Below, in pieces: positions 33,630-45,984 of a stretch of 64,000 nt of DNA (position 1 is its first letter; each line of letters starts with the position of its first letter). A program made the translations under genes and the position numbers. The notes beneath the pieces are model-generated. The model saw only the letters and a list, made by a program, of their open reading frames with translations. It was not told where the DNA came from and searched no databases. Source of the DNA: Erythrobacteraceae bacterium WH01K. GTDB lineage: Bacteria > Pseudomonadota > Alphaproteobacteria > Sphingomonadales > Sphingomonadaceae. The stretch is from contig CP115967.1 in the NCBI GenBank assembly GCA_027941995.1, forward strand, positions 62,001-126,000, read 5' to 3'.

Positions 33630-35426
33630 ATGAGTATCGAAACTATCGCACCGCTGAAACGGTGCGCAATATACACCCGAAAGAGCACCAATCGGCGTCT
33701 TGAGCACGACGTCAATTCGCTGGTCACGCAGCGCGAAATCAGCAGCGCATACATTACGAGCCAACAATATAAGGGCTGGGTGGAGCTACCGAACCGATAC
33801 GACGATGGCGGTCATTCGGGGAGCGGAATGGATCGCCCTGCCCTCTCGCAGCTCATGCAGGATATCGAAGCAGGAGAGATCGATGTTGTCGTCGTCTACA
33901 AAATCGATAGGCTGACGCGCAGTCTCGCGGACTTCGTTCGGATGATCGAGATCTTCGATCGCCGCAACATCGCGCTGGTCCCCATCTCACAGGCTTTCGA
34001 CACGTCCGACAGCATGGGCCGGATGATCCTAAACGTGCTGCTCACGTTCTCGCAATTCGAGCGCGAGCTTATCGCGGAGAGAGTGCGCGACAGCATTCGC
34101 ACCCGCAAGCGGCACGGCAAGATGCATGGTGGCCTGCCGCCATTTGGCTACATTGCTACGCCTGACGGTCTCAAGATTGACGAGCCCGAAGCTGAGATCG
34201 TCCGGTTCATCTTCGACGAATTCTTGCGGACAAGGCGCTACACAAAGGTCATGACCGCAGTGCGCGAGCGCGGATATTGTAGCTCTATTAAGTACTCGCC
34301 GCGCGGCAAGCCGCGTGGCGGAACTGCGATATCACCGAGCACGGTCTACGCTATCGTCCAGAATCCGATGTATGTCGGAGAAATTCGCGGGCACGATACG
34401 ACCTACCCCGGAGAGCACGAACCGCTCATCTCGCGCGATATCTGGGACGAAGCGCAGATAATTTGCCAGGAACGCAAAAAGCGCAGACCTCACAATCGCG
34501 ACACTGACCACTTCCTTGCCGGCCTGCTTTGGGACGATCTTGGGCGCCATATGCGGCTCGACCTGAAGTGGCATTGGGGCAAGTTCTATAAAACTTACGT
34601 CTCGAGCAACGCCATCTGGTCGCAGAAGCTATTTCTCCGGCAGTATCGTGCGAGCGCCGACCAGCTTGATGAGGTTGTTTTGGCGGCAGTCGCGGCATTC
34701 CTATGCGATCGCATCAAGCTTCGAAAGGCGCTCAAAGGGCTGGGTCTGTTCGGCGAAAACCTGGAAACCTTGGCAGCGAAAGGGCCAGCGGCATCCGACC
34801 GACTGATGGCGACCCCGAAGCCGCATCTGCATGAGCTTTTCAAGGCGATCGCGCATCGTGTGGAGCTCGGTGAGGACCAGGTCTCGATCGAGTTTCGTAT
34901 GCTGGAGGTACAGCGGTATCTCGAATGGAAGAGCGAAATGAGTTTCCGCGGGCGTCCATCAAACTGGTCGTGCAGCGATGCTCGGTATGAGCATATCGTT
35001 GCCGTGCGGGCAGTGACTGCGGAGCGATGGCCCTCCCTGCACATCAATCCGCGACAGACTTCCTGCAAAGGAAAGCCGGACAAGAAGCTTGTCGATCTGG
35101 TTCGAAGCGCGCGAAAAGCCCAGCGGCTCGTGGAAGAGAATCGCGCGCTCGATCTCGATGCTCTAGCCAAGATCCATGGTTGCCGCACCGCGCAATTCAC
35201 CCGTCTGATCCGGCTGAATTATCTGGCTCCTGACATTGTGACGGCGGTTTTCGACGGGACGCAGCCTCCCGGTCTCAACAGGAAAGTCTTACTCAATTCC
35301 AATGTGCCGACCGATTGGGCGGTACAGCGCAAGCTTTATGGCTTTCCAGCGCCCGAGCGCGCCATTGATCCTCGCAACCTCTATGGGCGCGGCATGTGGC
35401 CGAGCGCGAGAATAGAAGCTCCATAG
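33630..35426 (+). CDS. large serine recombinase
   Basis: A 598-residue serine integrase. The N-terminal resolvase domain has the nucleophile in YTRKSTNR (Ser near 19), DDGGHSGSGMDRPAL, VVVYKIDRLTRSL and FSQFERELIAERVRD. A recombinase domain follows (GGLPPFGY, then STVYAIVQNPMYVGEIRG). The usual Cys-rich zinc ribbon is reduced: the loop around FLAGLLWDDLGRHMRL has lost the cysteines, as in some phage and plasmid forms. It could move the island that follows it (35.4-42.8 kb). The attachment sites are not visible. Confidence 0.85.
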   Translation: MSIETIAPLKRCAIYTRKSTNRRLEHDVNSLVTQREISSAYITSQQYKGWVELPNRYDDGGHSGSGMDRPALSQLMQDIEAGEIDVVVVYKIDRLTRSLADFVRMIEIFDRRNIALVPISQAFDTSDSMGRMILNVLLTFSQFERELIAERVRDSIRTRKRHGKMHGGLPPFGYIATPDGLKIDEPEAEIVRFIFDEFLRTRRYTKVMTAVRERGYCSSIKYSPRGKPRGGTAISPSTVYAIVQNPMYVGEIRGHDTTYPGEHEPLISRDIWDEAQIICQERKKRRPHNRDTDHFLAGLLWDDLGRHMRLDLKWHWGKFYKTYVSSNAIWSQKLFLRQYRASADQLDEVVLAAVAAFLCDRIKLRKALKGLGLFGENLETLAAKGPAASDRLMATPKPHLHELFKAIAHRVELGEDQVSIEFRMLEVQRYLEWKSEMSFRGRPSNWSCSDARYEHIVAVRAVTAERWPSLHINPRQTSCKGKPDKKLVDLVRSARKAQRLVEENRALDLDALAKIHGCRTAQFTRLIRLNYLAPDIVTAVFDGTQPPGLNRKVLLNSNVPTDWAVQRKLYGFPAPERAIDPRNLYGRGMWPSARIEAP

Positions 35427-35456: not shown

Positions 35457-36224
35457 TCAGCCAATGTTTACCTCTTCAGGATTGACCAAGGTAAGCGGCC
35501 GTTTGACGCTAGAGTTTGCGCCACTCGAAGATCGCGACAAGTTCTGGGGTCCTGAGATGATCCTTAGCTTGGCATTCCGATAGTGGGCGATCCGGAAGGC
35601 CATCGCGACTTCCTCGCTCGCAAAAGTCGTAGTGAATTGGCCGTCTGCCGCGTCGCTCAGAGTGCCCTCTGGCACCTCGGAATGCCACCCGCGCCCCTCA
35701 CGAAATGCAGTGACCAGAGCGCTGAAGGTAGGATCGGCATGATCGACATGGGCCTCTTCGAAGGTGAGCAGGTCGCCACTAATCTCGCATTCGACAAAAC
35801 CGAGTTCGTCGGCATGCTCGTTAAAAAACGCCCGTTTTGCTGTTCGAATGTCCGACAGAACCGCCGCGCGACAGGCATCGGCAAATTCCTGAAACAGTGG
35901 TTTTGGCTCACCACGTATCGCCCATATGAAGCTGAAATCGGTCTCGCTGCCATCCGTGCGAATGGCCCAGAAGCCTCTCGTGGCGCCACCAGCTCCTGAA
36001 TTTGTGCGCACTTCGAAATGGTCGATCCCTGCGCCGGCCTTCGAATTGTTCTCGCCATGCGCAGCATCAAACCGCTCGACCAAGGCAGCAAGGTCACTGT
36101 GATCATTCGCATCCTCGATTGGGACGCCGTCCGGATAACGATCCCGCAGCGTACGGAAATGATCAGTCGCCGCCTTCTGTGTATTCCAGACGCGTCCGTT
36201 GCTAAGGCTGATCTGCTTAGCCAC
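35457..36224 (-). CDS. DUF3223 (DCL-like) protein, partner of the AAA_13 ATPase
   Basis: A 255-residue protein starting at GTG, which shares one base with the upstream AAA_13 stop codon (TAGTG). Residues about 45-115 have the DUF3223 pattern: DLAALVERFDAAHGENNSKAGAGIDHFEVRTN, then FWAIRTDGSETDFSFIWAI. The following segment VECEISGDLLTFEEAHVDHADPTFSALVTAF resembles an HNH-like arrangement (Cys, then HVDH). Translational coupling to an SMC-like ATPase suggests a two-component defence system with this as the nuclease; the nuclease role is inference. Confidence 0.65.
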   Translation of the reverse strand: MAKQISLSNGRVWNTQKAATDHFRTLRDRYPDGVPIEDANDHSDLAALVERFDAAHGENNSKAGAGIDHFEVRTNSGAGGATRGFWAIRTDGSETDFSFIWAIRGEPKPLFQEFADACRAAVLSDIRTAKRAFFNEHADELGFVECEISGDLLTFEEAHVDHADPTFSALVTAFREGRGWHSEVPEGTLSDAADGQFTTTFASEEVAMAFRIAHYRNAKLRIISGPQNLSRSSSGANSSVKRPLTLVNPEEVNIG

Positions 36225-38464
36225 TACTCGCCCACCGGCTCGGGCGAAGCCTTTGGAACATCCCCACTCGGGAGCTTCATCATCATGTTGAAATGAGCAA
36301 GATGTCCCGTTTTCTCAAAGATTTGCCGGAACACTCGCAGGTATCCCTGAACCGCATTACCGTCTGCGGCCAGGTAGATTTCATCATGCGCGGTGTGAGA
36401 GCCATCGTGGGTCCAAGAGAAAAGAGAAGCGCAGATCTGCGCCTCCCTGCCTTCAAATTTGGCTACGATTTCATCTTGCTTCAGGCCGCCGAGCACGATC
36501 AGGTAGTTCTCGATGATCCTGCGCAAAGTGTTCTGGATCGTTAGCTTCGAGCGATCGTCAGCGCGTACTTCCTCCCATAGCATTTCGTACGACGTCTTCA
36601 CTGGGTTGAACCCATAGCTCTGAACCGATGAGATGCCCTCGCGCTTGCGCACGACCCAAAATGTTTCATCGCGCCTGCAATTGTCAGTGGCGCGGCTGCG
36701 GTCGAAGCTGACTTCCTTATGGAAGTAGATGTTGTGCGTGAGCACAAACACCTGCCTTGCGGAGCCATTGCCGTCGCGCACATCTTTGATGACGTTTCTG
36801 ATAAGCGAACTGACGACAAACAGGACGTCAGCATCCAGGCTGGACACCGGATCGTCGAACACGACGACCTTCTCTTCGGTAGTGCCGGTACCCGAAGTGC
36901 TTCCAGAAAGCATGTGATAAAAGTACAGAAACGTCACGAAGGAGCGTTCGCCCTCGCTGAGCGTGCTCCGCGCATCAGAGCCATCCGAACGAACTATGCG
37001 GTACATATCACCGCGCTCGCCCGCGACCGAGAGCTTGAAGCTGGTGAAGCCGAAGGAAGTGAGTATCGAGTTAATCGCATCGACCGTCGGTTGCACGCTG
37101 GTTGCCTTGGCCTCGAGCTCTTTCAACCGGGTGTCGAACTCCGCGCGCGTTTGGCGTTTCGACGCAAGGCTCTGTTCCAAGCCTTCGATGGCTTTTGAGA
37201 TCGTTCCGGTTGTTGTTTCGTAGGTTGAAAGATCAGTCTTTCGCTCTTCGATGATGAAGCGCCAGACCTGGCTTCTCAGCGTCGTTCTCGAAGCGGCCAG
37301 GTCGCGCACAAGCTCATTGTGGGACTGAATGGCTTCGTTCGCCTGCGCGACTATCTCAGCTAACGCGTTGCCGACTCCCAGGGTGTTTTCGATTTGAACA
37401 GCCTCGCTGGGATTGCGGCGTTTGGCATCGAGCCTTTCGATATTGAGATCGTAGGCGCGCCTGAGCGCCGCATGGCGCTCGGCCAGGACATCGTTGTCTA
37501 CGAACCGCGACGTCTCGGCAAGCAAGCCTTGCACCCGTTCCTCCACGTTGTTGGCGGCAGCGGCATATTGGTCGGCAAGCGCGCTGATTGCAGAAAGATC
37601 GTTCTCGTATTGACGATCGAAGAAAGCATCGAGATTGTCACGCAGGTCGGCAGGCGCGGATTGTTGGCAGAACGGACAGCGCCCGTTGGCGGGCTCGATA
37701 TACTGCACACCTTGTTTCACCCAGTCGCTGTTACCTAGCTGCTCGATGAGCTTGGCGACGATCACGTCGTCGCGACCCACAATCCTGCGCTCTAGGATTG
37801 GTGCATTTTCCATGTCTTGAAAGCCGCTGAAATCGATCGGAGCAATCGGCGCCTGTTCAGTCGCATCGGTTCGGAATGTCGTTTCCGCATGGGATTTGAG
37901 CGTATCGAGATGTACGAGTTCGGACGCGTTGTTCTCCGCTTCTGCGATAAGCTTGTCGCAAAATGCGGCCTTACTCTGCCTGTGCCCTGCCATCGCTTCT
38001 TCGAAGGCGCCCTTATGGGTTTGTTGCGATGTCCAACAAGCCTCTTCGAGCTGAACTCTCGCGTCTCTCAATTCCTGGCGCCGCCCACCGGAGGCATCAT
38101 CACCTTCCAGATTGCGTATAAGTCCGTCGATTTCGCGGTCGAGCTTTCCAATCTCACCCTGTAGCCGTTCAATTTCTTCTGCGTTTTTGGTTGAGTCCTC
38201 GCCAAGTGTGAAAATGCCTTTGAGCTGCTCGCCGAAGTTGTTCTCTGCGAAGTCGCGATTATAGACCAATGCCGCGATTGGACGAGCGTTAGCCCAGCCC
38301 ACCGAATAGCCGTCTCGGGCTGCAGGATCGCTGATTGCACGAGAGATTGTTGTTTTGCCGCAGCCATTATGACCAAAGAGGAAATTCACCTTCTTGAGCT
38401 CGCTCAGCTCCACGCCGTCGTTTGGGAAAGTGGCCTCACCAGTAATCGATATACTAATCAGCAT
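36224..38464 (-). CDS. AAA_13 (PrrC/RloC-like) ATPase
   Basis: A 746-residue SMC-like ATPase. Walker A GHNGCGKTT (31-38), central coiled coils around a CPFCQQ motif near 260, signature LSEGERSFVTFLYFYHML near 500, Walker B KVVVFDDPVSSLD near 535, then VFVLTHNIYFH. The C-terminal 120 residues contain LRRIIENYL near 648-656 and a histidine pair (SWTHDGSH) about 34-38 residues later, which recalls the Arg-x3-Glu ... His triad of PrrC-type anticodon nucleases. A DUF3223 gene follows immediately. Abortive-infection defence is the likely role. Confidence 0.75.
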   Translation of the reverse strand: MLISISITGEATFPNDGVELSELKKVNFLFGHNGCGKTTISRAISDPAARDGYSVGWANARPIAALVYNRDFAENNFGEQLKGIFTLGEDSTKNAEEIERLQGEIGKLDREIDGLIRNLEGDDASGGRRQELRDARVQLEEACWTSQQTHKGAFEEAMAGHRQSKAAFCDKLIAEAENNASELVHLDTLKSHAETTFRTDATEQAPIAPIDFSGFQDMENAPILERRIVGRDDVIVAKLIEQLGNSDWVKQGVQYIEPANGRCPFCQQSAPADLRDNLDAFFDRQYENDLSAISALADQYAAAANNVEERVQGLLAETSRFVDNDVLAERHAALRRAYDLNIERLDAKRRNPSEAVQIENTLGVGNALAEIVAQANEAIQSHNELVRDLAASRTTLRSQVWRFIIEERKTDLSTYETTTGTISKAIEGLEQSLASKRQTRAEFDTRLKELEAKATSVQPTVDAINSILTSFGFTSFKLSVAGERGDMYRIVRSDGSDARSTLSEGERSFVTFLYFYHMLSGSTSGTGTTEEKVVVFDDPVSSLDADVLFVVSSLIRNVIKDVRDGNGSARQVFVLTHNIYFHKEVSFDRSRATDNCRRDETFWVVRKREGISSVQSYGFNPVKTSYEMLWEEVRADDRSKLTIQNTLRRIIENYLIVLGGLKQDEIVAKFEGREAQICASLFSWTHDGSHTAHDEIYLAADGNAVQGYLRVFRQIFEKTGHLAHFNMMMKLPSGDVPKASPEPVGE

Positions 38465-38686
38465 AGTCTCTCCTCAGAGTATTGCCCAGAAAATCGGGAG
38501 CGGCCCCTACTCATGCTCCTCCAGAGATCTCAGCAAACTAGCTCACGCTCGTTGAATTGCGCGACATGAGATCTTACTAAACTTATTCATAAAACGGCGA
38601 GCGCAGCTTTTGAAGAAATCTTCGATTTGTTCTGTCAGTAATCATTCTGACCCAGCTTAGGGGCACCCATCGGGTATAGGTAAAAC

Positions 38687-39385
38687 GTGAGCGTGGCTGA
38701 CGACATTAAAAAGAATTGTGCCGATACATTCGGCAAGAAGTGGGCCGTACGAGACGGTCAGGTTGTTCCAGACGCAAGCGACCTGAAGCTAACCAACGAC
38801 GCAGTGCGTTTTGAAAAGGCTACCGTCCTCTATGCTGATCTCGACCAGTCTACGGATCTCGTCGAGACGAAGAAATGGCAGTTCGCGGGAGAGATATACA
38901 AGACGTTCCTCTATGCGGCCTCCCGTCTTATCCGAAACCATGGCGGGAAGATTGTCTCATACGACGGTGATAGGGTCATGGGGGTTTTCATAGGAGATAG
39001 ACAGCGAAACGAGGCGGTCTCCTGTGCCTTGAAGATCAACTACGCGGTAAAAAACTACGTCCAAGCAGAGAAAGAAAAGCGTTGGTCTGGTGATTTCAAG
39101 ATCCGCCATGTGATCGGCATCGACGTATCGGAGATACGCGGCGCACGCACAGGTGTTCGCGGCGACAACGACTTGGTATGGATAGGCACCGCTGCAAATC
39201 TCGCTGCCAAGCTTACATCACTTAGCGCAGATCAGCCGACCTGGATCACTAAACGGGTTTACGATTACCTCGATGGTTCGCAGAAGTTTGGGTCCAAAGG
39301 GGAGAATATCTGGACTAGCTGGAAATGGAACCAGCACAACGACGAGGAGATATATTCCTCGACCTATTGGAGGCAGTTCAGTTGA
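38687..39385 (+). CDS. pycC: Pycsar-type nucleotide cyclase (PycC-like)
   Basis: A 232-residue class III cyclase domain with no sensor domain. Metal-binding aspartates are Asp51 (VLYADLDQST) and Asp94 (YDGDRVMGVF), and the block HVIGIDVSEIRGARTGVRGDNDLVWIGTAANLAAKL is typical of Pycsar cyclases. Known PycC enzymes make cCMP or cUMP upon phage infection. It is followed with a four-base overlap by a cyclic-nucleotide-binding TIR-like effector. Start GTG at 38687 with a weak ribosome binding site. Which pyrimidine it uses cannot be told. Confidence 0.85.
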   Translation: MSVADDIKKNCADTFGKKWAVRDGQVVPDASDLKLTNDAVRFEKATVLYADLDQSTDLVETKKWQFAGEIYKTFLYAASRLIRNHGGKIVSYDGDRVMGVFIGDRQRNEAVSCALKINYAVKNYVQAEKEKRWSGDFKIRHVIGIDVSEIRGARTGVRGDNDLVWIGTAANLAAKLTSLSADQPTWITKRVYDYLDGSQKFGSKGENIWTSWKWNQHNDEEIYSSTYWRQFS

Positions 39386-40305
39386 GCGGATTAATCGATC
39401 GTTTTCAGGGCGACGCAGGACGCGGCAATCTCATTGACGCAATGCTGCAGCAACAGATCGTCAGCGGTAATCGCGAACTAGCCGAGGAACTGGCCGACCG
39501 AGCCGAGATCATCGAGGTCTCCGAGGGCGAAGCGATCATCGCCCAAGGCGGCGACGACAACGATCTATTCCTGATTGTAGCTGGCAGCTTTAGGATCGTC
39601 GTGAACGGTCGTGATGTGGCCTCGCGCGGACGAGGTGACCATGTCGGAGAAATGGTGGTCGTCGAGCCATCTCAGCGTCGGTCCGCAGACGTCGTAGCGA
39701 TTGAGACAGGGCTGGTCGCCAAAATCACGCACGCCGATATCACCGATGTCGCCTCGCGCTATCCGGATATCTATCGAGTCATCGCAAGGACACTGGCCCG
39801 CCGCCTGTTCGAACGCAACAAACTGGTTGGACAGCACCGCGAAAAGATACGGGTTTTTATCATCTGCTCGGTAGAGGCGCTGGCCGTCGGGCGCATCATC
39901 GAGAACGCCTTTGAGCATGACGATTTCGTAGTGCGGCTCTGGACGAACGATGTCTTCAAGGTTGCGAGCTACGCTCTGGATTCGCTGGAGACCGAAGTCG
40001 ATGATTCCGATTTCGCAATAGCGATCGCTCATAGTGACGACGTCACCCTGTTCCGGGACCAGGAATGGCCTGCGCCTCGTGATAATGTGATCTTCGAGCT
40101 CGGGCTTTTCATGGGCCGCCTCGGCCGTAAGCGAGCCATTCTGATGGAACCGCGCGAGGAAAAGGTGAAGTTGCCCAGCGATCTTACTGGCGTGACCACC
40201 ATCCCCTACTCCTACGAACCCGGCAAGGACGCCTCAGCACTTATGGCGCCAGCATGCAATACTCTGCGGGATCACATCAAAGAGTGGGGCCCGTTCAACG
40301 GCTGA
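39382..40305 (+). CDS. pycTIR: Pycsar effector: cNMP-binding plus TIR-like domain (PycTIR-like)
   Basis: A 307-residue product from the TTG at 39382, which overlaps the cyclase stop (TTGA) and has TTGGAGG 8 bases upstream; an ATG 57 bases earlier lies inside the cyclase gene. Residues 45-140 form a cyclic-nucleotide-binding domain (SEGEAIIAQGGDDNDLFLIVAGSF, GDHVGEMVVVEP). Residues about 155-280 are a TIR-like nucleotide-binding domain (IRVFIICSVEAL, PRDNVIFELGLFMGRLGR with Glu239). In Pycsar such effectors bind cUMP/cCMP and degrade NAD, killing the infected cell. Confidence 0.85.
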   Translation: MSGLIDRFQGDAGRGNLIDAMLQQQIVSGNRELAEELADRAEIIEVSEGEAIIAQGGDDNDLFLIVAGSFRIVVNGRDVASRGRGDHVGEMVVVEPSQRRSADVVAIETGLVAKITHADITDVASRYPDIYRVIARTLARRLFERNKLVGQHREKIRVFIICSVEALAVGRIIENAFEHDDFVVRLWTNDVFKVASYALDSLETEVDDSDFAIAIAHSDDVTLFRDQEWPAPRDNVIFELGLFMGRLGRKRAILMEPREEKVKLPSDLTGVTTIPYSYEPGKDASALMAPACNTLRDHIKEWGPFNG

Positions 40306-40359
40306 GACCTTGCCTGCCCGCCGGTAATCCACGGGATGTGCGCTGAAGGGCTGGAAAGG

Positions 40360-40374
40360 CTAGATAAAATCTAG
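40360..40374. promoter_or_regulatory. inverted repeat upstream of tandem-cyclase gene
   Basis: CTAGAT-AAA-ATCTAG, perfect 6-bp arms, 77 bases before the tandem-cyclase start and 55 bases after the effector stop. It may be an operator for the second operon. Confidence 0.4.
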
Positions 40375-40450
40375 ATGTTCTTCTAACGTTCCATTTCACA
40401 ACAGGTCGCAGCCCTTCGGTGATTCGCGATCATCAAGGAGGCTGCATACG

Positions 40451-42043
40451 ATGGCGTGGAACGAGGATCGTGCCCGGAAAAGAATCCGGGATTTCATGGA
40501 AAGCGTGCCGGAAGGCGACATCAAGGTCGAAGATTTTCGCACCTTCCTCACCGAGGCTCGGGTGCAGAAGGGGATGGCTGCCGACACTTCCGTGCGGGCA
40601 GCTCTGATCGATATTCCGCGCAATAGGGCAATCACCACGGACGCCGTTCACGTCTATGCCAATCTCATCGACTTTAATGATGTCTTGACCGAGGCGGGAC
40701 GCGAGACCGAGGCAAGCCATAAGCGGGCGCTCGAATTTCTCCATGCGCACTACCGGGGCTGTGACGAACTCCTCGACGAATTCGAGATGCAGCGGGTGGA
40801 TTTCCACGGCTCGAGACTGCATGCTGTAGTCTTGGCCCCCGAAGGAGCCGAGAACGAGGGCGAACGTGTTCGGGTCGCCGTAGCTTTCTCCGCTGCGTTT
40901 CGTGAGATGGTCGAGAGGCTCGGCGACAAGCATCCGAATTTCAAGACGGGTGTCTGCATCGGTATCGACAGCGGGCCCGCTGTCGCCATTGATTCCGGTC
41001 GGCGCGGCGAGCGCGAACCGCTCTTCATCGGTAGCCCGGCGAATCATGCGGCCAAACTCGCGGACGGAACAGATGAAGGCCTGAATCTGAGCCCGCGAGC
41101 GGCCTCCGCGATCGGACAGGCGACCAAACCGCTCGCCAAGAGCGTGTTCCTCAACGAAGAGATTGAGCGCCGTTATCTTGACGACGAAATCACTATGGCA
41201 GGCGTTCGGCAGACCGCCAACGAACGGCTCGAAAAGGCATACGCTTCGGTGCTCGAAAGTCTTGACGCGCGGATTAAGTCTGACAGTGGCGAAGCGGTCT
41301 TCCGGTTCCATCACAAGGAGCCACCGCTGAAAGACCTAGTCTACGCGGACCATCCTCCGAGCAATGCGATCCGGATGGAATTAGCATCGATCTTCGCCGA
41401 CGTGGACAACTTCACGGCTTATATCGACCATGCCATCGCGACCGGCGGAATTGCCGAGGCCGTGGCCAATCTGCATGTCATCCGCGCAGAGATGGGTGCC
41501 GTCTTGCGGGACGATTTCGGCGGTCGAAAGGTTCGCTACATCGGGGATTGCGTCCACGGTCTGCTCGCGGAAGGAAGCACGATCGAAACCAATTCAATGG
41601 CTACGATGAAGAAATCGGTCGATGCTGCCGCAGGGCTTCGTTCCTCCTTCGAATTGTGTCGCGAAATGCTGCCTGGAATCGAGGGCCTGGGCCTTGCCAT
41701 CGGCATCGATTACGGCACCACGCCCATCTGTCGGCTCGGTCTACGCGGCGATGCCAGTGTTCGCGCAGCTGCTAGCCGTGCGACCTGCGTTTCTGAAGCG
41801 GAGCAGCGGCGCTGCAATGGCATCGAGACAGCGCTTGGCGAGAACGCATATCGTAATTCGCCAGCAAGCGTTCGCGAAGCTTTCGGTAACGAGCGGATTT
41901 TCCAGAATCTGAATACGGAGACTGCTGAGGTGGTACTGGGGACTATGTCGTCACCCTACATCAACACAGGAGCGGACGGCGAGCCAATGCGCGCGCATGA
42001 GCCTGATGCATCCCCGCCGATGCGGGCACATGATCGCAGGTGA
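40451..42043 (+). CDS. tandem class III cyclase (pseudo-domain plus active-looking domain)
   Basis: A 530-residue protein with a strong ribosome binding site (AAGGAGG). Residues about 60-205 are a cyclase-like domain (AVHVYANLIDFNDVL, then GIDSGPAVAIDSGRRGEREPLFIGSPANHAAKL), but the first metal aspartate is replaced by Asn and the GD motif reads HG, so it should not catalyse. Residues about 310-490 are a second cyclase domain with Asp317 (FADVDNFTAY) and Asp366 (YIGDCVHGLL) kept. It overlaps an E2-like gene by four bases. Likely makes a cyclic-nucleotide signal in a defence setting; product unknown. Confidence 0.75.
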   Translation: MAWNEDRARKRIRDFMESVPEGDIKVEDFRTFLTEARVQKGMAADTSVRAALIDIPRNRAITTDAVHVYANLIDFNDVLTEAGRETEASHKRALEFLHAHYRGCDELLDEFEMQRVDFHGSRLHAVVLAPEGAENEGERVRVAVAFSAAFREMVERLGDKHPNFKTGVCIGIDSGPAVAIDSGRRGEREPLFIGSPANHAAKLADGTDEGLNLSPRAASAIGQATKPLAKSVFLNEEIERRYLDDEITMAGVRQTANERLEKAYASVLESLDARIKSDSGEAVFRFHHKEPPLKDLVYADHPPSNAIRMELASIFADVDNFTAYIDHAIATGGIAEAVANLHVIRAEMGAVLRDDFGGRKVRYIGDCVHGLLAEGSTIETNSMATMKKSVDAAAGLRSSFELCREMLPGIEGLGLAIGIDYGTTPICRLGLRGDASVRAAASRATCVSEAEQRRCNGIETALGENAYRNSPASVREAFGNERIFQNLNTETAEVVLGTMSSPYINTGADGEPMRAHEPDASPPMRAHDRR

Positions 42044-42816
42044 AATCAGCCGTATTATACCTGGCTGAAACGGCTCCAGCTTGGTTTTCAATAGAAAAGT
42101 CTAATAGAGATTACCTTGTTGGTCATGCGCGACTGCCCAAGACGCCTTGGGCGGTCGGCGGCCTTCAACTGCATATCTTCGGGAGAGAGGTTCCACGGGT
42201 CCGCGAGGAAGTGCCAGGCACTGATCTGCCGTGTCGATGCCCCGAGCGGCACATTCAAGGTGATCAAACCTTCTGCCTGGGTCTGCGCTACCTTAAGGTG
42301 CAGTCGACGGAAAAGGCCCGTCAGTGGTGGGTGCAGCTCGACCAGTTTCTTAGATGCCAAGGGGTCGCTGAACTCACGCGAGTTTGGCCCGTAAACCAAT
42401 CCCTAGATCATGGTAGCGCGGGCGAACATCATGAGCGTGCCCTCTCGCTTGCTGCCGAAGCAGGTCTGGAGGAAGAGTATGCTTCCGCACGCCTCGGTGA
42501 GCCGAGTTGGCTAACCGATCCCAAGTTGCACCTGTTTGACAAGAAGGGCCGCGCCATTAACGGCCGTGCTCTCTGTCCGAGAGGTTGTCGGAGACGTGCT
42601 CGTGGGCGTATAGTTAGTACGCTCCGCATCGATTGCGAAAAAAGGCAATTACTAGTCGATCTTGCTTTTACTGAGCACTTACGTCGCAAGGCGTTAGAGA
42701 GGTATTGGAAGGCTGTTTTCGATAGCGGTGAGAAGTGCTGCAGAACAATGCGAGGGTGCCCGCTAGCCGCCTATGAGAACCGACGCGAAGGCGAATACGA
42801 TGAAATTCGTGAATGA
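42040..42816 (+). CDS. E2-like cysteine-rich protein paired with tandem cyclase
   Basis: A 258-residue protein starting at the ATG overlapping the cyclase stop (ATGA). Residues 60-90 (VPGTDLPCRCPERHIQGDQTFCLGLRYL) resemble the active-site region of ubiquitin-conjugating E2 folds, where a His-rich turn precedes a G-x-C-L motif; Cys79 would be the candidate catalytic residue. The C-terminal third has several cysteines (CPRGC, a single Cys, CC, C) that could bind zinc. No E1 or JAB gene is adjacent. A conjugation-like or scaffold role is possible but unproven. Confidence 0.5.
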   Translation: MKSAVLYLAETAPAWFSIEKSNRDYLVGHARLPKTPWAVGGLQLHIFGREVPRVREEVPGTDLPCRCPERHIQGDQTFCLGLRYLKVQSTEKARQWWVQLDQFLRCQGVAELTRVWPVNQSLDHGSAGEHHERALSLAAEAGLEEEYASARLGEPSWLTDPKLHLFDKKGRAINGRALCPRGCRRRARGRIVSTLRIDCEKRQLLVDLAFTEHLRRKALERYWKAVFDSGEKCCRTMRGCPLAAYENRREGEYDEIRE

Positions 42817-43269
42817 GGTCGACTTCATTCAATGCCAGCTAGATCGGTTACTTGGGTTCTGTGTCTATCTGTAACCGCGAATTGCTTTCCTCTTTTGCCT
42901 GAATACGCTCATCCTTATCATTTATACACTCAGGGCTCGCTTTGACACTTTAACTCATTGCTTGGGATGTTAACTGCCCCGATTCCAACCGCAAAACAGG
43001 CAGTTCCGGATTATCTGACATTGCTTTCGATCGGCGATGATCATTCAACGTCTCGTTTCGGGGACCTGCTATGAATGCCGTGATGACTGAGATGGGACGC
43101 CGCGCGCGACATCTGGTCACCGAACACCGAAAACGAGGCGACCGCAATTGGGCCGCCTCAAAGGCTGAAAATACTCGCGCTTCACTCCGAGCAGATCAGA
43201 TAGCAATGCGCGAGTTAGCACCTGCACAGCATCCGTCGGTTGAGGCGCAGCGCCCATGGATTTCATTCA
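42817..43269. other. gap between E2-like gene and module 2
   Basis: Nothing convincing in about 450 bases. A frame at 43071-43319 begins MNAVMTEMGRRARHL and faintly recalls the start of gamma-glutamyl phosphate reductase, but it degenerates and overlaps the end of the next gene. The AT-rich part at 42880-42960 is probably old intergenic DNA at an island boundary. Confidence 0.35.
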
Positions 43270-44615: not shown

Positions 44616-44715
44616 ATCGCTGTCGTCGAATATCCAACGATTCTAGGCGCATATGGATTCCGTAGGAAAGCAAAAAGTGGGTTTGCTTTTGCTTGCTTGG
44701 ACGGTCGTGAAACAA

Positions 44716-44744
44716 ACATGTGATAAAGAGTATTTATCACATGT
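44716..44744. promoter_or_regulatory. 29-bp palindrome between DUF1403 and recombinase, module 2
   Basis: Perfect 12-bp arms ACATGTGATAAA and TTTATCACATGT flank GAGTA, 38 bases before the recombinase start. The inner pair differs from module 1 on both arms at once, so symmetry is under selection while the 5-base centre is free to change. Confidence 0.7.
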
Positions 44745-44781
44745 TGCAGAGACGCCTGCTTTGGCTAGTCTGAAGCCTGAA

Positions 44782-45984
44782 ATGGCCGGCATCCCCTCCC
44801 CGTACGCGCCCAGCAACACCGCCATCGCGGAAGTGGTGACCGATCTTGCGTTGGCGCTGCGGGGTCCGGGCGTAAACGTCGATCGGGAGATGCTCGAGGC
44901 TTATGTCACGGCAGCTGCGCCGAATTCAATCCGCGCGCTGCGCCAGGATGTTGAAGCGTTCGATCTATGGTGTCGGCGCGAGAATTATTCGACCTTTCCC
45001 GCCACGCCGAAACAGGTCGCGAATTGGTTGAAGCATCGCGCCGCCGAAGGTGGTGCACCCGCCTCGCTAGTGCGCTACAAGGCATCGCTCGCCAAGGCTC
45101 ATAGACTACTCGGGCTCGCAGACCCGACCAAACATGAGCTGTGCCGCCTCGCGATTGCATCGCATCGGCGCGTGGTTGGTTCGAAGCAGAAGCAGGCGCG
45201 ACCGCTTCGGTTCCGCGGCGCGGTCAAGGATCCGGTGCAAGATACGCCGCGCGGCATACATATCCGCGCGATCTTGGAAGCTTGCGACGACACGCCAACC
45301 GGGCTGCGGAATCGCGCGCTGCTCTCGACCGCCTATGATACGGGGCTTCGCGCCAGCGAACTGGTTGTAGTCGAGGTCGCCGACCTGCTGGAGGCGCTCG
45401 ATCCCGAGGCCCGGCTGCTGGCAATCGATCGCCATAAGGGCGACCAGGAGGGAGAAGGCGCCACCGCCTATTTATCACCGCGCAGCGTCAAGGCGATCGA
45501 CGCCTGGCTCAAAGCAGCGGACATCGAGGACGGGCCGATCTTCAGGCGGGTGATTGTGCGACGCTATGCCGCACGACCTGCGCGAAAACCGATGAAGCCC
45601 TCGCAGCTATCAGGGCGCGCTCTTTGGGACCCGCGCAAGTTCGTCGGGCGCGACGCGGTGGCAGCACGGGTTGAGCATCAGGTTGGCGAAAAGGCCCTGC
45701 ATCCGGGATCGATCACACCGATTCTTCGCAAGATGATCTCGGAGGCAATCGATGTGGGCGCGTTCGGCGATCTCGACAAGGAGCAGGCTGGTCAGCTCGT
45801 GAACGGGTTCAGCGCGCATTCGACGCGGGTCGGGCTCAACCAGGACTTGTTCGCGGTGGGTGAGACGCTCGCTGGCATTATGGATGCGTTGCGCTGGAAC
45901 TCGCCAAAGATGCCGCTCGCCTACAATCGCAATCTTGCGGCCGAAGAAGGCGCAGCAGGGCGTTTGCTTTCAAAGCTGGATTGA
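44782..45984 (+). CDS. tyrosine recombinase, module 2
   Basis: A 400-residue recombinase, equal in length to copy 1 when started at the ATG at 44782; the longer frame from 44653 would run through the palindrome. Catalytic residues: Arg in YDTGLRASEL, Lys in RHKGDQEG, HxxR in SAHSTRVG, Tyr in PLAYNRNL. The sequence is highly similar to copy 1 across the catalytic domain and varies mostly in the first 30 residues. An intact enzyme in a second copy of the same module suggests independent acquisition rather than a recent duplication. Confidence 0.85.
   Translation: MAGIPSPYAPSNTAIAEVVTDLALALRGPGVNVDREMLEAYVTAAAPNSIRALRQDVEAFDLWCRRENYSTFPATPKQVANWLKHRAAEGGAPASLVRYKASLAKAHRLLGLADPTKHELCRLAIASHRRVVGSKQKQARPLRFRGAVKDPVQDTPRGIHIRAILEACDDTPTGLRNRALLSTAYDTGLRASELVVVEVADLLEALDPEARLLAIDRHKGDQEGEGATAYLSPRSVKAIDAWLKAADIEDGPIFRRVIVRRYAARPARKPMKPSQLSGRALWDPRKFVGRDAVAARVEHQVGEKALHPGSITPILRKMISEAIDVGAFGDLDKEQAGQLVNGFSAHSTRVGLNQDLFAVGETLAGIMDALRWNSPKMPLAYNRNLAAEEGAAGRLLSKLD

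Follow-up and report, generated by a model that had tools for sequence, protein, structure and literature searches.

A clade A Pycsar cassette with an E2-like partner gene, and cyclase tails that follow the type of partner

The genes at 40451-42043 and 42040-42816 raise the question of why a nucleotide cyclase should be coupled to an E2-like protein, and whether the two form a system of their own. They lie in a 64,000-nucleotide stretch of Erythrobacteraceae bacterium WH01K (contig CP115967.1, positions 62,001 to 126,000), here named the window. A preliminary description of this DNA presented the pair as a new signalling defence system located directly after a Pycsar operon. Both open reading frames were found as it described them, with the stop of the 530-residue cyclase overlapping the start of the 258-residue gene in the sequence GTGA (42040-42043). 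The features of the locus are listed below.

38687-39385, forward strand: PycC1, a Pycsar cyclase with a single domain, which opens the cassette (PADLOC PDLC00766, 2e-102; Pfam Guanylate_cyc; same place in relatives L011-L014)
39325-40305, forward strand: CNBD-TIR effector PycTIR (Pfam CAP12-PCTIR_TIR, 7e-31, and cNMP_binding, 1e-11; PADLOC PDLC00731, 6e-136)
40451-42043, forward strand: tandem-domain clade A cyclase, 530 aa, here named PycC(A) (PADLOC PDLC00762, 6e-188; PDB 6yii, 2e-76; D317 and D366 invariant)
41984-42040, forward strand: C-terminal tail of PycC(A), PMRAHEPDASPPMRAHDRR, with two RAH motifs, proposed site of E2 action (motif in the last 16 residues in 22/23 E2-type PycC clusters)
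42040-42816, forward strand: E2-Crich protein, 258 aa (Pfam PF20298, 1.4e-23, and PF20272, 1.4e-18; PADLOC E2 PDLC00875, 3e-97; conservation)
42809-42931, forward strand: stub of the PycTM effector gene (protein score 72, shuffles reaching 50 at most; at the DNA level the match to L011 stops at 42921)

The tandem cyclase was matched by the PADLOC PycC models (6e-188 with PDLC00762, and 2e-174) and, in a PDB sequence search, by the solved PaPycC structure (6yii), to which it is ~36% identical over residues 50-492. Two cyclase domains in succession are the defining feature of clade A of PycC (PMC11224242), and a full-length alignment with 20 relatives showed this arrangement in the window protein, as the preliminary description had read it. 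These matches assign the cyclase at 40451-42043 to clade A of the Pycsar cyclases, rather than to a separate family beside Pycsar. The metal ligands of domain 2, Asp317 (41399-41401) and Asp366 (41546-41548), are invariant in all 21 aligned cyclases. For domain 1, the loss of ligands noted earlier stood for the first position, which is Asn71 in the branch of the window and Asp in some relatives; the second change, initially read as GD to HG, is better described as Gly-Asp to Gly-Ser at H119-G120-S121. Judged by these residues, domain 1 is a pseudo-cyclase and domain 2 is the catalytic domain.

The order PycC1-TIR-PycC(A)-E2-PycTM is complete in the four nearest genome-contig relatives, which are from Croceicoccus (L011), Sphingomonadaceae (L012), Oricola (L013) and Brevundimonas (L014). 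At the DNA level the window matches L011 from 38684 to 42921 (87%), and the match ends ~113 bases into the 504-base L011 gene for PycTM, a membrane effector assigned there to Pfam PF18967. In the window only the first ~110 bases of this gene are present, with an in-frame stop, and unrelated sequence follows. Since the homology breaks inside PycTM and leaves a stub, the comparison indicates that a rearrangement removed this effector from the window copy and kept the TIR effector, whose gene is intact and located 146 bases upstream of PycC(A). The true start of PycTIR is probably further in than 39325, because residue 23 is the first one covered by the PADLOC match. By gene order, the two window operons are one composite Pycsar cassette; the operon said to precede the pair is real, but in the relatives it forms a single cassette with the tandem cyclase. 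As is expected of Pycsar, a PycC-family cyclase has a gene for a cyclic-nucleotide-responsive effector, the CNBD-TIR protein, beside it. PaPycC (Tal et al. 2021, as cited in PMC11224242) likewise has tandem cyclase domains, and the window-type cassette has both TIR and TM effectors; the window copy differs by the lost PycTM and by having two cyclases with one intact effector.

A self-standing cyclase-E2 system unrelated to Pycsar would fit the lack of an intact effector gene behind the window copy, and nothing beyond that. The PADLOC and PDB matches to PycC, the presence of PycTM or TIR genes in the loci of relatives, and the PycTM stub in the window all point the other way; this reading was ruled out, as the cyclase belongs to PycC and relatives have the whole cassette. 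The novelty claimed for the pair was thus not borne out: the tandem cyclase is itself a clade A PycC, Pfam and PADLOC already list the E2 family, and these assignments place the two overlapping genes in a known type of locus, clade A Pycsar with E2. Another alternative is that the unit has no activity in this genome, its own effector being truncated to a stub. This is improbable, given the CNBD-TIR effector just upstream and the purifying selection on both genes in comparisons with L011-L013, where dS could be estimated (dN/dS 0.04-0.08 for PycC(A) and 0.09-0.14 for E2-Crich), although the selection may predate the truncation. Because both genes are under purifying selection and their key residues are conserved, the reading of the pair is far above chance.

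The E2-Crich protein is a direct member of families catalogued in Pfam (E2-ntca and E2-Crich) and PADLOC (E2; PDLC00875, PDLC00868 and PDLC00878), which give it a name and no mechanism. The E2-ntca domain (PF20298, above the cut-off) covers residues 17-117, and the Cys-rich domain (PF20272) residues 123-242. The E2-like pattern and Cys-rich tail noticed previously were both upheld: the active-site-type motif LP..CPERHIN.D.SFCL surrounds Cys79 (codon 42274-42276), with an HPN-like element followed by the cysteine (HI[NQ]xDxxFC); His71, Cys79 and Cys67 are invariant in 33/33 relatives. The C-terminal domain has six cysteines that are likewise invariant, in 32/32 sequences containing this domain. 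AlphaFold2 models of the full-length protein and of the E2 domain alone had low confidence (pLDDT 45 and 50, from 5-row alignments), and Foldseek and VIA-align comparisons of these models found no E2 match above background, a result not counted against the E2 assignment given the shallow alignments. Profile-profile alignment to the E2 domains of Cap2 covered the Cys motif alone and was not significant (pairwise P ~0.01, probability <5%), and no relative was found in a PDB sequence search. The E2 fold is accordingly regarded as putative, on the basis of Pfam and PADLOC membership and the Cys motif. The E2 and Cys-rich domains are encoded separately, by overlapping genes, in an Acinetobacter plasmid (L032:5502-6259); the Cys-rich part is thus able to act in trans.

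Half of all the loci collected were recruited through the E2 protein; hence an unbiased count of the partnership was made in the 16 loci to which the cyclase alone had led (plasmids L030-L035, L037, L038 and L063; genomes L056-L058 and L069-L072), in all of which the next gene is visible. A seventeenth cyclase, on viral contig L073, was left out because the contig ends before the next gene. An E2-Crich gene comes next in 10 of the 16 loci and a gene for a ThiF-type E1-E2 protein in the other six, so that the proposed co-occurrence of cyclase and conjugation-type gene held throughout. For two of the E2 genes the records carry no annotation. From BLAST, several clade A cyclases had seemed to be without E2, an impression that was rejected; in one such case, that of a Pseudomonas aeruginosa plasmid, the E2 gene lacked an annotation and came to light by profile. 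Conversely, all 13 plasmid records with an E2 relative also carry a clade A PycC. Neither PycC(A) nor E2-Crich was found in the phage records searched, and the viral contigs searched yielded no E2 relative and a single cyclase relative, that of L073.

A JAB gene is present in five of the six ThiF-type loci (L035, L037, L063, L071 and L072), and the partners in these five are Cap2-like. Relatives of this partner adjoin CD-NTases, and its PADLOC E1-E2 match (5e-183) identifies it as a true CBASS-type enzyme. When partner type was placed on a tree of the PycC body, with the tail excluded, at least two switches were found, both forced by well-supported branches. The sixth ThiF-type locus, from Agrobacterium (L031:4001-7400), has a different ThiF protein (Prok-E2_B and ThiF, without JAB) behind a clade A PycC ending in ...GGTRHA, and represents a third partner type. 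No E1 or JAB (Cap3) gene was found among the genes beside the window copy, and no E1 or deconjugase gene beside the other E2-type loci.

The effectors differ across the E2 loci, and include PycTM, CNBD-TIR, a CNBD protein accompanied by a WYL gene in divergent orientation, and a Tle1-like phospholipase. The last (PF09994, 3e-69; no PADLOC match) is located behind PycC-E2 in Bradyrhizobium plasmids (L004:3039-4325 and L039:7026-8345), and is a candidate Pycsar effector of a new type. The WYL regulator and CNBD protein are a recurrent divergent pair facing PycC(A)-E2 (L005, L009, L036, L048, L049, L050, L054 and L057); in L005 the CNBD protein matches the PADLOC TIR effector PDLC00730, yet has no Pfam TIR domain.

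The cyclase tails follow the type of partner. E2-partnered PycCs were clustered at 80% identity, and their last 16 residues were scored against shuffled tails. Of the 23 clusters, 22 carry R-[AS]-H or [RQT]-P-[HY] at a distance of 2-9 residues from the C-terminus, against a mean of 0.34 and a maximum of 3 for shuffled tails; the single exception has KAH. The motif was first seen in the plasmid set and held in genome loci fetched or extended later, and none of the seven single-domain PycCs inspected has a tail of the R-[AS]-H type. The codons of its Arg vary (CGC, CGG, CGA, AGG and AGA), and this alternation between CGN and AGR places the constraint at the protein level. An origin of the motif as a by-product of the E2 ribosome-binding site was ruled out by the same codon variation, together with a second copy of the motif 11 residues upstream in many relatives. 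The C-terminal residue itself varies (R, W, L, K, E, S, H, T or I), and is Arg in the window.

Cap2-partnered PycCs have a different tail, ending in ...GPAKKDGFS (L035), ...RTLAGFS (L037), ...GPAKPDGFA (L071), ...GPVKRDGFA (L072) and ...TPTKPAGFA (L063), and this GFA/GFS type is absent from the E2-partnered PycCs. The CD-NTases beside related Cap2s end in ...TPTTPKGFA, ...TPKKPDGFA and ...TPNKSAGFA (L064, L065 and L067), giving a common pattern, ...P.KP.GFA, for PycCs and CBASS CD-NTases with a Cap2 partner, despite the lack of any relationship between these two enzyme families. The last 36 residues of five Cap2-type PycCs and five Cap2-linked CD-NTases aligned with a mean score of 49.8, compared with 24.6 +/- 1.35 (maximum 30.0) for shuffled tails, 15.9 for windows of the PycC body and 22.6 for E2-type PycC tails. 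Since the tail motif tracks the partner type, the tail is most likely where the partner acts on the cyclase. Two further CBASS CD-NTases (L066:1787-3004 and L068:1793-3004) end in GFG-GAE and GFG-GK, with extra residues past the usual last Gly or Ala; by analogy with ubiquitin precursors, they could possibly be precursors trimmed by Cap3.

A cyclase with a ubiquitin-like conjugation partner is common to the window locus and type II CBASS (PMC10097602, PMC11153139), which agrees with the Cap2-like logic, without an adjoining E1, proposed in the preliminary description. In CBASS, the Cap2-linked cyclase tail serves as donor in the conjugation: a Cap2-cGAS thioester is formed, and conjugation is abolished when the terminal Gly is replaced by Ser, Val, Arg or Trp (PMC10097602); in Bacillus cereus the CBASS cyclase, ending in KPGGFA, is joined through its C-terminal Ala to lysines of PspA (PMC11153139). 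The Cap2-like E1-E2, the JAB gene and the matching cyclase tail also occur at some clade A Pycsar loci, namely the five with JAB. The window copy differs in that its cyclase is of class III and not a CD-NTase, its partner is an E2-only protein with a Cys-rich domain, lacking the Cap2 E1 domain and Cap3/JAB, and its PycC ends in Arg instead of Gly or Ala (the Cap2-type relatives end in Ala or Ser). For E2-only CBASS, an E2 without E1 is said to regulate the defence cyclase (Yan et al. 2024, as cited in PMC12657218); that cyclase family differs from the one in the window.

We regard it as fairly probable that the locus is the second half of a clade A Pycsar cassette in which E2-Crich acts on the PycC tail in place of Cap2, with TIR as the remaining output. 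On phage infection the cyclase would make a cyclic pyrimidine, presumably cUMP as suggested by its clade. E2-Crich, as its dedicated partner, would most likely engage the R-[AS]-H tail, probably through Cys79 as the catalytic residue, and this would license, localise or boost the cyclase, a role like that of Cap2 towards the CD-NTases of type II CBASS. The output of the window copy would most likely be the upstream CNBD-TIR effector, by NAD+ depletion and abortive infection. The variable terminal residue, the lack of an adjoining E1 and the weak Cap2 profile match count against this mechanism. A C-terminal thioester is not predicted, because the terminal residue of E2-type PycCs varies and is Arg here, unlike the Gly or Ala that Cap2 needs; its place may be taken by non-covalent docking, by dependence on a host E1, or by a bond that is internal or made through a side chain. 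The stronger proposal, that an E1-free E2 covalently modifies a class III cyclase via the R-[AS]-H tail in a slot exchangeable with CBASS-type Cap2, so that CD-NTases and clade A PycCs would come under the same ubiquitin-like priming via interchangeable tails, is put forward only tentatively, as possible.

Two other roles for E2-Crich were weighed. It could be a non-covalent regulatory or sensor subunit, in which a degenerate E2 fold and a zinc domain bind the PycC tail and release the cyclase on infection; the absence of E1 and deconjugase genes beside E2-type loci, the varying terminal residue and the separate gene for the Cys-rich domain in L032 would suit such a subunit. A pure scaffold would not need the invariant Cys79, His71 and Cys67, and bona fide E1-E2 enzymes fill the same slot in relatives, which makes this role unlikely. 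E2 enzymes usually require an E1 and a ubiquitin-like donor, and E2-Crich could alternatively transfer a host ubiquitin-like protein, supplied through a host ThiF/MoeB-type E1, to targets, with PycC as a genetic neighbour only. This is very unlikely, as it leaves the partner-specific PycC tails unexplained.

With the E2 family and PycC already catalogued, what is new here, from sequence comparison, is the correspondence between partner and tail and the fixed E2-Crich/ThiF slot behind clade A PycC. A literature search found no paper linking PycC to E2, Cap2 or JAB, and an E2 partner may have been mentioned elsewhere before. The correspondence makes this locus variant worth testing, reduces the question of how clade A Pycsar is switched on to a few point-mutant and tail-swap experiments, and extends Cap2-type control beyond CBASS. 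If the tail is the recognition element of the partner, Pycsar, whose infection trigger is unsettled, would gain a testable regulator, and the C-terminal peptide would be a portable tag by which a ubiquitin-like enzyme could control any signalling enzyme bearing it.

The window belongs to the 172.5-kb second contig, possibly a plasmid, of a 2.9-Mb genome. Further defence and mobility genes were found beside the cassette: a HamC-like DUF3223 gene (PDLC00202, 6e-88) and an AAA_13 ATPase gene (PDC-S06, 6e-271) at 35457-38464 on the reverse strand, and a large serine recombinase gene at 33630-35426. On the other side of the cassette, a tyrosine recombinase gene is located at 44653-45984 on the forward strand.
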